Source of the DNA: Flavobacterium piscis
GTDB lineage: Bacteria; Bacteroidota; Bacteroidia; Flavobacteriales; Flavobacteriaceae
Length of the DNA stretch: 64,000 nt
NCBI RefSeq assembly: GCF_001686925.1
Contig: NZ_LVEN01000004.1
Coordinates: 1 to 64,000, forward strand
Reading direction: 5' to 3'
Part shown: one piece after another, positions 34,429 through 37,786 of the stretch
Numbering within the stretch: the first letter of the stretch is position 1
Layout: the number at the start of each line of letters is the position of its first letter
Made by a program: the position numbers and the translations under genes
Notes under the pieces: generated by a model
Database searches by the model: none
What the model saw: the letters and a program-made list of their open reading frames with translations, nothing else
What the model was told of the DNA's origin: nothing

Positions 34429-34461
34429 AAAAAGCTGATAGATTTCTCTACCAGCTTTTTC
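34429..34461 (-). terminator. Terminator of small exported protein 1
   Basis: Minus-strand stem AAAAAGCTG / CAGCTTTTT around a 14-nt loop. The loop and stem are nearly the same as in the hairpin at 36920-36951 downstream of paralogue 2. Confidence 0.82.
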
Positions 34462-34523: not shown

Positions 34524-34712
34524 TTATTTTTTAGCTTCTGGCTTTGCTGCTTCTGCTTTTACTTCCGCTTTTTTCGCTTTTTTGTCTGCTTTTTTCTCTT
34601 TTTTAGGAGCTTTTGCTTCTTTTGCCGGAGTTGTTTGAGCTGGAGTTGTTTGAGCGCTTACCATTGCAGTTGTTCCTAAAACAGCTACTGCTAACATTAC
34701 TAATTTTTTCAT
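34524..34712 (-). CDS. Small exported Lys/Ala-rich protein, paralogue 1
   Basis: 62-residue precursor: signal peptide MKKLVMLAVAVLGTTAMVSA, then a mature peptide of about 42 residues made almost only of Lys, Ala, Glu, Pro and Thr, with no cysteine. I start it at 34712 because this Met aligns with the starts of paralogues 2 and 3; an in-frame ATG at 34745 would add 11 residues. It sits just after the histidine kinase gene but has its own promoter with the shared 18-bp operator. The composition recalls the acid-shock protein Asr of enterobacteria, but this is analogy only. Function unknown. Confidence 0.85.
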   Translation of the reverse strand: MKKLVMLAVAVLGTTAMVSAQTTPAQTTPAKEAKAPKKEKKADKKAKKAEVKAEAAKPEAKK

Positions 34713-34756: not shown

Positions 34757-34792
34757 CAAAGATATATACGCTAAATGAAGACAAAATGAAGA
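34757..34792 (-). promoter_or_regulatory. Promoter and tandem operator of paralogue 1
   Basis: On the minus strand TCTTCATTTTGTCTTCAT (34792-34775) is followed after 10 bp by TATCTTTG (34764-34757). The operator is a direct repeat of TCTTCAT with 11-bp spacing. The TTTG between the two half-sites is placed 17 bp from TATCTTTG and so serves as the -33 box. The same sequence and spacing occur at 37502-37537. A transcript start near 34750 leaves a leader of about 38 nt. Confidence 0.8.
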
Positions 34793-34818
34793 TTGAACGA
34801 CTTTGAAAAAATTAACTT

Positions 34819-36156
34819 TTAATTGTGTTTTAAAACTTCCGGAAACAACAACATAAAGGTTGTACCTTCATTTACAGCAGAAGAAACTTTTATCTCGATA
34901 TGATGAAAAGATGCAATACTATCCGCAATCGCAAGCCCTAACCCCTGACCTTCCTGATCTGAACTAATTCTGGCAAACCTGTTGAATATATTTTCGATTT
35001 GAGAAGAATTCATTCCTATACCAGAATCTGCAATCGAAATAAAGTAACGATCCTCTAAAAAACCATCTGTAACAATAATGCTTCCCGTTGGTTTATTGTA
35101 TTTTATGGCATTAGTTACCAAATTATAAATCAAAATATGAATCAGAGTTTTATTTCCTGTGAAGATATAATCATGCTGCATTTTGTTTAAAAACCGAATT
35201 TCCCTGTCATCAATTCGATCTTGTAAATCTTCCTGAAGATCCCTAATTATTTCATGAAATTTCACATCTTCATTTGCCTCGTATTGATTGTTTTCGATGC
35301 GGGAAATCAACAATAAGTTATTGATGATTTTTTTTAGCATATCTAAAGTTCTTAACGAACCTGCGATTTTATCGAAAGCATTATCATCAAGAGAATCATT
35401 TTGAAGCAAATTCTCGAACTTGTTTTTAAGCAAAGCAATGGGCGTAAGCAACTCATGAGAAACATTCGATATAAATTGTTTTTCTTTTTTAAAAAGCTCT
35501 GCAATACGATCCATCATCTGGTTTAAAACAAAATCGAGTTCCCTAAAATCCCTTGATCTCGCTTTTATTGGCGTATGATCAAAAGCCTCTGGTTCGTTGA
35601 CTCGCCTTATTTTGGTATCAATAATTTTATAGAAAGGCTTCAGTAAATATTCGATATAAAAAGTATCTGCCAAAAAGGTAATCAGCAGGATAACTACAAA
35701 AACAATTATAATAAAAAATCGAATAATAAATGTAAGGTCATTTATTTCAGCAAGACTGCTTCCTATTTCTAAATTATAACCCTGATTACCGAAAGTAAAA
35801 TGATATTGCAAAATTCTATATTCATTTTCTTCACCTTCAATAATGCGATATTCATTAGTAAAAACAGCTTTCTTTTTGGCAATTTTTACCGGTGATTTAG
35901 AAAGCACTAAAAACTCACTATGTAGTGTAGAAAATTGCGAATAGGTTTCTGTCGAATCATCAGAATTTTCGATAAAATCATTTATCTCATTTTGATCTAA
36001 ATGCTGTATGAATTTTTGTTTTTTTTCCAGTAATCCGTTATTAATATGCCTGTAAACAACATTTTCGACCAGAATGGGCAACATTAGCCATAAAACCAAA
36101 ATCACCAACAACCTTGTTAGTGCATTAAAAATAGCCAACTGATGCTTTATCTTCAC
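34819..36156 (-). CDS. Sensor histidine kinase
   Basis: 445 residues: transmembrane helix at about 13-33, periplasmic sensor domain of about 110 residues, second helix at about 142-165, a short HAMP-like segment, then HisKA and HATPase domains. The phosphorylated His is H234 in SNVSHELLTP. The N box is NLVTNAIKYN and the G boxes are DSGIGM and GQGLGLA. It is transcribed 10 bp after its partner regulator. The signal is unknown; the sensor domain has no recognisable fold or metal-binding motif. No terminator separates it from paralogue 1, so read-through is possible. Confidence 0.95.
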   Translation of the reverse strand: MKIKHQLAIFNALTRLLVILVLWLMLPILVENVVYRHINNGLLEKKQKFIQHLDQNEINDFIENSDDSTETYSQFSTLHSEFLVLSKSPVKIAKKKAVFTNEYRIIEGEENEYRILQYHFTFGNQGYNLEIGSSLAEINDLTFIIRFFIIIVFVVILLITFLADTFYIEYLLKPFYKIIDTKIRRVNEPEAFDHTPIKARSRDFRELDFVLNQMMDRIAELFKKEKQFISNVSHELLTPIALLKNKFENLLQNDSLDDNAFDKIAGSLRTLDMLKKIINNLLLISRIENNQYEANEDVKFHEIIRDLQEDLQDRIDDREIRFLNKMQHDYIFTGNKTLIHILIYNLVTNAIKYNKPTGSIIVTDGFLEDRYFISIADSGIGMNSSQIENIFNRFARISSDQEGQGLGLAIADSIASFHHIEIKVSSAVNEGTTFMLLFPEVLKHN

Positions 36157-36166
36157 AATATTTTAT

Positions 36167-36841
36167 TTACTCATTAATACGATAACCAACATTTCTAACG
36201 GTTTCGAACCAATCGATAGCAGTATGTTTGTCGAGTTTTTTTCGAAGATTTCGAACATGAACATCAATAAAATTAGAATCTGAATTGACCTCCAGAATAT
36301 CGCCCCAAATATGCTCTGTCAATTGCAGCCTGGTGATTACACGATTTTTGTTTAAAACCAAATACTGAAAAATATCAAATTCTTTTTTAGTAAGACTGAT
36401 GGGAGTATTATCATAACTAACCTTATAATCCTGAAGCTGCAACAAAAAACCATGAATACTTAAACTGTTTACAGTAAAACCATGAATTCTGCGAATTACG
36501 GCAAATAAACGAGCACTAAGTTCTGTTAATGCAAACGGTTTAGTCAAATAATCATCTGCACCAAGATGCAGTCCATTTATTCTGTCATCCAACTCTCCCC
36601 TCGCCGTAAGTACAATAACTGCAATTTTTGATTTTGTTTTTCGAACCGTTTGCAAAACCTCAAATCCATCTCCGTCAGGCAAACCAAGATCCAGAAGCAT
36701 AGCATCATAATCGTTACTATTTACTTCTTCAAGGGCATCGGCACAATTATGAGCAATCTTGCAAACGTAACCTACGTTGCATAAAAAATCATAAACTTCG
36801 ACAGCTAGTTCCTTATTATCTTCAACAATTAAAATATTCAT
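36167..36841 (-). CDS. OmpR-family response regulator
   Basis: 224 residues: receiver domain with acidic pocket VEDN and phosphoacceptor D51 (LLDLGLPDGDG), conserved Thr in VLTARGE and Lys in LTKPFA. The winged-helix DNA-binding domain follows (LTKKEFDIFQYL, DVHVRNLRKKLD). Regulators of this class bind direct repeats spaced about 10-11 bp. Such a repeat lies upstream of paralogues 1 and 3, so those genes are its likely targets. I do not see the repeat upstream of the regulator itself (36842-36919). Confidence 0.95.
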   Translation of the reverse strand: MNILIVEDNKELAVEVYDFLCNVGYVCKIAHNCADALEEVNSNDYDAMLLDLGLPDGDGFEVLQTVRKTKSKIAVIVLTARGELDDRINGLHLGADDYLTKPFALTELSARLFAVIRRIHGFTVNSLSIHGFLLQLQDYKVSYDNTPISLTKKEFDIFQYLVLNKNRVITRLQLTEHIWGDILEVNSDSNFIDVHVRNLRKKLDKHTAIDWFETVRNVGYRINE

Positions 36842-36919
36842 AACTGAGCATTTAAGCGCAAATAAATTTAAGCAATTCTAAAAAACATTATTGCGCATTA
36901 TTAAAAAATTAACGAATCA

Positions 36920-36951
36920 AAAAAAGCTGATAAATTTCTTTACCAGCTTTC
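36920..36951 (-). terminator. Terminator of small exported protein 2
   Basis: Minus-strand stem AAAGCTG / CAGCTTT followed by a T-run, nearly identical in stem and loop to the terminator at 34429-34461. Confidence 0.8.
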
Positions 36952-37029
36952 TCCATCTGCATTCTCATAATCATTACTTCTGTTTTGCCTCCTTACAATT
37001 CTTTGAAAGCAAAACAAAAACAACTTTCA

Positions 37030-37212
37030 TTATTTCACCTTAGCTGCCTCTGCTTTAGGAGCCTCTGCTTTTGCTTTTTTATCAGCTTTGTTTTTGTGGT
37101 GTTTTGTAGCTTTAACTTCTTTTGCAGGAGCTGCCTGAGTGGGAGCTGTTTGTGCACTTACCATTGCAGTTGTTCCTAAAACTGCTACTAATAACATCAA
37201 TAAATTTTTCAT
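37030..37212 (-). CDS. Small exported Lys/Ala-rich protein, paralogue 2
   Basis: 60-residue precursor with signal peptide MKNLLMLLVAVLGTTAMVSA, then about 40 mature residues rich in Lys and Ala, including KATKHHKNKADKKAKAE. Its signal peptide differs from that of paralogue 1 at few positions. It follows paralogue 3 by 49 bp without its own operator, so the two are probably co-transcribed. It ends before a terminator and the response regulator gene. The His pair and Lys/Ala words resemble Asr-type periplasmic proteins. Function unknown. Confidence 0.85.
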   Translation of the reverse strand: MKNLLMLLVAVLGTTAMVSAQTAPTQAAPAKEVKATKHHKNKADKKAKAEAPKAEAAKVK

Positions 37213-37261
37213 GATTTCTAAATTTAAATTAATTAACCTTTTATTTTACAATAACCTTTTC

Positions 37262-37459
37262 TTATTTTTTTACTTTAGCTGTCTCTACCTTTGTAGCTTC
37301 ACTTTTTTCTGATTTTACTTTTTTATCAGATTTAGATTTTGGGTGTTTTACAGCTTTAACTTCTTTTGCAGGAGTTGCTTTAACATCTTTTGCAGGAAAA
37401 GCACTTACCATAACACTTGTGCCAAAAACTGCTACTAATAACATCAATAAATTTCTCAT
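37262..37459 (-). CDS. Small exported Lys/Ala-rich protein, paralogue 3
   Basis: 65-residue precursor with signal peptide MRNLLMLLVAVFGTSVMVSA, then about 45 mature residues rich in Lys, Ala, Val and Ser, with no cysteine. It differs most from the other two: it lacks the QT(A/T)P start of the mature chain and has repeated PAK(D/E)VKA words. First gene of a two-gene unit with paralogue 2, driven by the operator promoter at 37502-37537. Function unknown. Confidence 0.85.
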   Translation of the reverse strand: MRNLLMLLVAVFGTSVMVSAFPAKDVKATPAKEVKAVKHPKSKSDKKVKSEKSEATKVETAKVKK

Positions 37460-37501
37460 GATTTCTACTATTTAAAAATTAATACCTTTTATTTTATAGA
37501 T

Positions 37502-37537
37502 CAAATGTACCCCTGTAATATGAAGACAAAATGAAGA
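37502..37537 (-). promoter_or_regulatory. Promoter and tandem operator of paralogues 3 and 2
   Basis: Minus-strand TCTTCATTTTGTCTTCAT (37537-37520), 10 bp, then TACATTTG (37509-37502). The 18-bp operator is identical to that upstream of paralogue 1 and at the same distance, while the surrounding sequence differs. Implied leader about 37 nt. Confidence 0.8.
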
Positions 37538-37633
37538 AATCATCTCATATAAATATTTTAACTTGACATTAACTATTGGGTGCTTTTCCACCATATTATT
37601 ACTATAAATTCATTTAATTTCACGAACAAAATG

Positions 37634-37680
37634 GTAGACGCGATACTGTGCGTCGCTACAACTCCGCAGTTCTCTGCGGA
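37634..37680. repeat. Degenerate GACGCAC palindrome plus short hairpin
   Basis: 37634-37659 (GTAGACGCG ... CGTCGCTAC) is a decayed copy of the palindrome that is intact at 53243-53262. It is followed by a perfect hairpin TCCGCAG / CTGCGGA at 37663-37680. Both lie in the leader region before polA. Confidence 0.5.
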
Positions 37681-37786
37681 ACGTACGCTACTAAAATGTA
37701 CTTATATTACTTATATGGTAAAAAATTTCTTTTTTGATTATTTTTTGATACCCAATTGTTTATTTTTACAGACTAATATTTTTTTT

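Follow-up and report, generated by a model that had tools for sequence, protein, structure and literature searches.

The window analyzed here was a 64,000-nucleotide stretch of Flavobacterium piscis DNA (assembly GCF_001686925.1, contig NZ_LVEN01000004.1, positions 1 to 64,000, forward-strand numbering), and the system of interest was a two-component locus on its minus strand, in which the same tandem operator occurred on both sides of a response regulator gene and a sensor histidine kinase gene. Read along the minus strand, the locus consisted of an operator, a -7 promoter box, the small protein genes SP3 and SP2, a hairpin, the regulator gene, the kinase gene, a second operator, a second -7 box, the small protein gene SP1, and a second hairpin. 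A first-pass annotation of this DNA had placed an 18-base-pair (bp) tandem site at 34792-34775 and 37537-37520, each copy 10 bp before a promoter box, and an exact motif search located both copies precisely there. Specifically, the upstream and downstream operators (37520 to 37537 and 34775 to 34792) both had the sequence TCTTCAT-TTTG-TCTTCAT, and the corresponding -7 boxes, TACATTTG (37502 to 37509) and TATCTTTG (34757 to 34764), lay exactly 10 bp past the operators. The positions that this annotation gave for the kinase/regulator pair and for the three small genes were confirmed as well.

The gene at 36167 to 36841 encoded an OmpR/PhoB-type response regulator (receiver plus winged helix), and the gene at 34819 to 36156, which had a GTG start, encoded a PorY-like membrane sensor histidine kinase. 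The upstream operator and -7 box preceded SP3 (37262 to 37459; 65 amino acids) as the first gene and SP2 (37030 to 37212; 60 amino acids) as the second gene of a cassette that was separated from the regulator gene by an intrinsic-terminator-like hairpin (36923 to 36950). The downstream operator and -7 box preceded SP1 (34524 to 34712; 62 amino acids), which was followed by a hairpin of the same type (34431 to 34458). The start of SP1 was kept among relatives; an alternative 73-amino-acid open reading frame (ORF) would begin a few bases past the predicted transcription start. All three proteins had signal-peptide-like starts, which were recognized by eye, and their mature parts, taken from residue 21, had net charges of +7 to +9 and contained 28-33% lysine. 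The trio had been described as Lys/Ala-rich, a description that fit SP1 and SP2; SP3 was Lys-rich but less Ala-rich (33% lysine, 13% alanine). Pfam and NCBIfam scans of SP1, SP2, and SP3 yielded weak, unrelated hits only. With SP1 as the query, the genome gave SP2, SP3, and a single weak hit at another location (E 0.0085).

The operator proved to be rare. Exact copies of TCTTCATN4TCTTCAT occurred twice in the 5.9-Mb genome, both times at this locus and each time 10 bp before TANNTTTG. Based on the base composition of the window, 0.15 copies of the operator alone and 1e-4 copies of the operator with its -7 box were expected per genome. Hence, two exact copies against 0.15 expected, together with the co-occurrence across genomes described below, led us to reject a chance origin of the motif. 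When up to three mismatches were allowed, the number of matches in the window was equal to that expected by chance (15 versus 15.2), and thus only exact or near-exact sites were informative. A genome search with a slightly looser operator plus the -7 box at up to three mismatches found seven matches (two with no mismatch, one with two, and four with three), and the same pattern run backwards found three; thus, nothing pointed to a larger group of strong sites in the genome. The first-pass annotation had viewed the locus as a self-contained module, a view that held for the strong sites only.

To place the site among relatives, we used a comparison set of 150 Flavobacterium genomes, in which an ortholog of the kinase was present in 40 (53-100% identical, E <=6e-145) and not found in 110. 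The next kinase match had an E value of 8e-42, and the remaining matches listed were 24-32% identical. The exact operator-N10-TANNTTTG was found in 37 of the 40 kinase-positive genomes and in none of the 110 kinase-negative genomes (Fisher p about 5e-32, shared ancestry ignored), and the backwards control had no match in any of the 150 genomes. The three kinase-positive genomes that had no exact operator plus box (G014, G044, and G120) had one-mismatch sites instead. With up to one mismatch allowed, a site was located just after the kinase gene in 40/40 loci and before the regulator in 36/40 loci, two of which had two such sites. The first-pass annotation had asked whether the motif was scattered and whether relatives with the locus kept it. 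The answers were in its favor: all 58 exact operator plus box sites in the 150 genomes adjoined this kinase gene, the site was kept at up to one mismatch in all 40 genomes with the locus, and the exact operator plus box was present in 0/110 of those where the kinase was not found.

The small proteins showed the same distribution. Family members (E <=1e-4) were detected in 38 of the 40 kinase-positive genomes and none of the 110 others, and among the matches listed all were at the locus; G111 and G120, which were missed by the search, had diverged small proteins. In G111, the locus had other neighbors, and the flanks read, ~2 kb per side, showed neither polA nor a phosphoesterase gene; both operators were still present beside the kinase. 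Outside the genus, neither the strict motif nor the kinase (E <=1e-50) was found in 346 other-genus genomes of a family sample of 349. Among named loci, of which we considered the best 80 of 113 and which overlapped the 40-locus set, so that the two sets were not independent, 78 had the site on both sides at up to one mismatch. Of the other two, L100, whose stretch ended early upstream, had the downstream site only, and L111 had two downstream mismatches, each of which affected the outer T of the repeat. These loci included Flavobacterium johnsoniae CI04, F. pectinovorum, F. hibernum, and F. aquidurense, and all were Flavobacterium or Flavobacteriaceae by title, except one labelled [Flexibacter]. 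Thus, the sensor-regulator pair, the control site, and the adjacent small proteins appeared to form one self-contained, inherited unit, and this comparison of sequences supported the earlier interpretation that the regulator controls the small exported proteins.

The 40 loci contained 78 sites at up to one mismatch, 40 after the kinase and 38 before the regulator, and 59 of the 78 were exact; a two-mismatch match in L066 was left out of this count. As the first-pass annotation had proposed, each site was a tandem of two half-sites 11 bp apart, given there as TCTTCAT, and the half-sites were arranged head to tail. The CTTCAT hexamers were intact in 77/78 and 76/78 sites, and the outer T and the spacer were variable; therefore, CTTCAT-N5-CTTCAT better described the operator unit. 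In contrast to the earlier proposal of a -33 TTTG in the middle of the site, the four bases between the half-sites were TTTG in only 38/78 sites (TTAA in 15/78, others in 25/78), which indicated that TTTG was not a required -33 element. The box TANNTTTG, which is the -7 consensus according to PMC6847099, was found 10 bp past the operator (28 bp from the operator start) in 74/78 sites. The remaining four had TAATTTTA (two sites), TAATTTCG (one site), or the box shifted by 1 bp (one site). In most of the 78 sites, a distal GTTAA within a AAAGTTAAACTTT-like inverted repeat was located about 24-19 bp upstream of the operator; at the F. piscis locus, it occupied 37558 to 37562 upstream, at 24-20 bp from the operator, and 34812 to 34816 downstream, the latter directly beyond the kinase stop codon. 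This element could be an UP element, a site for a second regulator, or a site for a second dimer.

We also compared the sites in the 14 loci whose kinases were less than 72% identical (26 sites, pairwise column identity). The core columns of the operator were 98% identical and the -7 box 94% identical, and the distal GTTAA element was 68% identical. The values for the surrounding positions were 50% for the N3 spacer, 48% for the 10-bp gap, 43% for the leader, and 45% for the upstream flank.

The regulator matched Response_reg and Trans_reg_C, and the adjacent kinase matched HisKA and HATPase_c, all above the Pfam cut-offs. A receiver plus winged helix next to a membrane HisKA/HATPase_c kinase is the composition of an OmpR/PhoB-family system, and the tandem head-to-tail site with an ~11-bp repeat before the putative target promoters, seen at 78 sites in 40 loci, was consistent with this assignment. 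The best NCBIfam model for the regulator was PmrA, at 185.7 bits against a cut-off of 330, so the regulator was not classified as PmrA itself; BasR/PmrA was also its second-best PDB match. The recognition-helix stretch SDSNFIDVHVRNLR was invariant in the 40 regulator orthologs, which were 73-100% identical to that of the window. Ten other regulators of the genome matched this regulator over nearly the whole length, and none had the same recognition-helix sequence.

In the case of the kinase, the nearest NCBIfam model was PorY, with a score of 256.9 bits. Because this score was below the cut-off of 350 bits and another kinase of the same genome scored 425.6 bits, we rejected the idea that the window kinase was PorY itself. 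The sensor domain (residues 35 to 140) had a net charge of -6. The model of the periplasmic domain had a predicted local distance difference test (pLDDT) score of 72.9, that of the whole kinase was of low confidence (mean pLDDT 67.6), and the domain model had no Foldseek match with E <=0.001. A further structure comparison favored PAS/Cache-type domains (TlpB, KinD, WalK, and CusS), and the domain may be PAS/Cache-like; the best Z score, 7.4, was below the safe level of the tool and too low for a ligand to be named. A Pfam scan of 37 sensor domains found nothing credible. In Flavobacterium sp. Leaf82 (L090), the alignment of the kinase gene covered 443 codons, of which codon 442 was a stop, and the protein ended a few residues before the 445-amino-acid kinase of the window.

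The kinase that passed the PorY cut-off belonged to a sibling regulator/kinase pair (L196; G000 C1 181760-183695), whose regulator was 39% identical to that of the window. Next to this pair were putative genes for a PAP2 phosphatase and a TonB-linked receptor. Of the 150 genomes, 40 had kinases over the PorY cut-off, namely 16/40 with the window kinase and 24/110 without it (some genomes had two, so not each need be an ortholog of the sibling kinase), and thus the kinase family of the sibling system did not track the site. In addition, the sibling locus had no hit in either whole-genome motif search (exact, or looser plus box). Control of the operators by the sibling PorY-type system was rejected. 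The location of a kinase over the PorY cut-off beside an OmpR-type regulator also bears on PorY annotation in Flavobacterium.

The two promoters looked like old duplicates of one cassette because their operators, operator-to-ATG distances (78 and 80 bp), signal-peptide-like starts, and terminators corresponded. The terminator-like sequence was predicted to fold as a strong hairpin, and GCTGGTARAGAAATYTATCAGC, at up to three mismatches, had two matches in the genome, one after SP1 and one after SP2. Since the hairpin closed both cassettes, the promoter, gene, and terminator seemed to have been copied as units. Among the 40 loci, a simple hairpin pattern was found in both cassettes of 21, in one cassette of nine, and in neither of nine, with a hit of another kind in one (L071). 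Stem changes occurred on both sides of the hairpin (GGTAGAG/CTATC, GAAAGAG/CTTTC, and GGCAGAG/CTGCC). Because the cassettes ended in terminator-like hairpins, the regulator/kinase pair would have a separate start or depend on read-through. An alignment of the regulator start in 25 of the 40 loci suggested that a degenerate -7-like box lies close to the start codon, together with a conserved GTTAA, and showed no operator.

The content of the cassettes varied. In G111 (L044:2143-2610) and G065 (L063:1704-2198), the upstream operator preceded a PepSY-like protein of 155 or 164 amino acids with a signal-peptide-like start, not a Lys/Ala-rich one; the matches of these proteins to PepSY_like (E 6.8e-6 and 0.011; 26.7 and 16.5 bits) were both below the Pfam cut-off of 28.3. 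With this other target, too, the operator stayed with the kinase. In G133 (L046:1999-2151) and G082 (L048:2325-2477), a third operator with a promoter was located 154 bp ahead of the regulator gene. The intervening DNA had no ORF of at least 35 amino acids that started with ATG, and a terminator-like hairpin lay immediately in front of the regulator start codon. A 60-nucleotide stretch of the presumed RNA that included the hairpin was 59/60 identical in these two genomes, and their regulator genes were 83% identical. The ORF-less transcript is a candidate small RNA, attenuator, or remnant cassette.

Several features of the locus were reminiscent of characterized systems. PmrA (BasR) of the enterobacterial PmrAB (BasRS) system, whose targets are lipid A modification genes, is also an OmpR/PhoB-type regulator that reads direct hexamers with a 5-bp gap. 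According to PMC3973317, the sites bound by Klebsiella pneumoniae PmrA are CTTAAT and CCTAAG, arranged head to tail and five bp apart; the Salmonella boxes are CTTAAG and XTTAAT, and a docking model names Lys153, Thr187, Asn188, His193, and His195 for specific contacts. The CTTCAT half-sites had the same length and spacing and were one base away from CTTAAT/CTTAAG, so they did not match the PmrA box as given in that source. Part of the recognition helix was shared as well: Ser, Asn, His, and Arg aligned with Thr187, Asn188, His193, and His195, and equivalents of Asn188, His193, and Asn196 were retained. In contrast to PmrAB, the kinase was nearer PorY than PmrB, the sigma factor and promoter were of another kind, and the targets would be small basic proteins. 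The likeness to PorY/PorX was confined to the kinase model, as the gene adjoining the kinase encoded an OmpR-type regulator, not PorX.

A second parallel was asr of Escherichia coli, which is induced at low pH via RstBA or at low phosphate via PhoRB and whose product is a small basic exported protein. The operator at our locus would span about -40 to -23; a spacer of 10 bp separates it from the -7 box, and the distal element would lie near -64 to -60. The asr promoter, as described in PMC9026648, has a PhoB box that covers the -35 region (-39 to -22), a 9-bp spacer to the -10 element, and a second box, for RstA, at -77 to -55. The RstA box differs from the operator here in being a TACA repeat. 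Unlike at asr, a single regulator was encoded beside its putative target genes. The Pfam Asr family was not among the matches listed for SP1, SP2, and SP3 at E <=1, a search in which HMMER filters can hide weak matches. Thus, the similar layout suggested that the locus may work like asr, but the proteins were not supported as Asr family members. Our literature search, which covered listings of open-access papers, found no paper on this system and, within that same scope, none on PmrA activation structures or Asr protein function; in one such listing, the 10 of 201 papers considered dealt, judging by title and abstract, with community surveys and detection.

Taken together, these data made it very likely, in our judgment, that the regulator of this locus activates operator-gene-terminator cassettes through the tandem operator. 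The kinase would sense an envelope signal and phosphorylate the regulator, and a phosphorylated PmrA/PhoB-type dimer would bind the two CTTCAT half-sites head to tail. Promoters read by the main sigma factor of the Bacteroidota have a -7 box of a distinct type and a weak -33 element, and F. johnsoniae transcription starts lie mostly 4-5 nucleotides past the -7 box, with a -33 element that is hardly visible genome-wide (PMC6847099). The transcription start was predicted at the same distance past the -7 box, which is what would put the operator at about -40 to -23. An activator box that overlapped the upstream promoter element at a fixed spacing to the -7 box, as seen here, is the arrangement expected for class II activation, in which the regulator, like PhoB at asr, would replace the weak -33 contact of the sigma factor and recruit polymerase. 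The targets would be cassettes of small basic exported proteins, here three genes in two cassettes, and by analogy with E. coli Asr, these proteins probably buffer or coat the envelope.

Several observations weighed against this activation model. The genomes are related, which inflates the counts above, so these were not independent events. In L043, L066, L069, and L070, the stretch read contained no upstream site with one mismatch or fewer. No operator was located directly before the regulator gene in the window and a terminator-like hairpin preceded that gene, so autoregulation of the regulator was not evident. The paralogous regulators L166 and L172 retained the helix His. In addition, since F. 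johnsoniae promoters in general show little -33 element (PMC6847099), the non-conserved TTTG was weak evidence for dependence on an activator. In a rival model, the regulator binds the same sites and represses, with the operator blocking polymerase until a signal arrives. The operator covered the -33 region at both promoters, and the sign of regulation was not derivable from sequence alone; yet the head-to-tail repeat and 10-bp gap resembled an activator site such as the asr PhoB box (PMC9026648), and TTTG, which might serve a promoter that works without an activator, was kept in fewer than half of the sites (38/78). We consider repression unlikely.

A DNA-binding protein encoded elsewhere might also read the operator, with the two-component genes as mere neighbors, and the ten near-full-length relatives of the regulator, two of which (L166 and L172) kept the helix His, would be a source of such a protein. 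However, none of the ten had the same recognition-helix sequence, the operator tracked the kinase (37/40 versus 0/110) even with the changed neighbors in G111, and the sibling kinase family did not track it, which made another binder highly improbable. Scarcely credible was the idea that the motif is functionless and the sites are identical merely through recent cassette copying. The cassettes did share a gene family, an operator, and a terminator type, as duplicates would, but in the 14 divergent loci the core was 98% identical and the flank, spacer, and leader were 43-50% identical, and recent copying was rejected as an explanation of the motif on that basis. The first-pass annotation had argued that the match was not simply a recent copy of the whole region; the divergent loci bore this out as far as recent copying was concerned, but the promoters did belong to old duplicated cassettes.

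Beyond activation by the regulator, we offer a broader reading that is tentative and, on balance, doubtful. The locus might be a Flavobacterium-specific, self-contained envelope-stress circuit with one kinase, one activator, and duplicated cassettes. The envelope would be neutralized or shielded by the basic proteins, which might also exert feedback on the acidic sensor domain. Such a circuit would be an independent parallel to enterobacterial asr on a Bacteroidota promoter. In G133 and G082, it would additionally drive the ORF-less RNA before the regulator gene.

Few response-regulator operators of the Bacteroidota are, to our knowledge, as well defined as this one. The operator was short and near-invariant, had a fixed spacing, and among the 150 genomes occurred only beside its own putative regulator; it was also present in F. 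johnsoniae CI04. Because of this near invariance and fixed spacing, activation at a Bacteroidota-type promoter is directly testable with a two-promoter reporter, and once its signal is identified, the operator could serve as a ready-made inducible element. In addition, the analysis linked a family of small basic proteins that has no name so far to a likely regulator.

The locus was flanked upstream by a divergent gene that we take to be polA and downstream by a metallophosphoesterase gene. Between the upstream operator and polA, a short stretch (37630 to 37693) that contained GCGATACTGTGCGTCGCTAC appeared by eye to be GC-richer than the AT-rich DNA around it; it is possibly a small repeat element.

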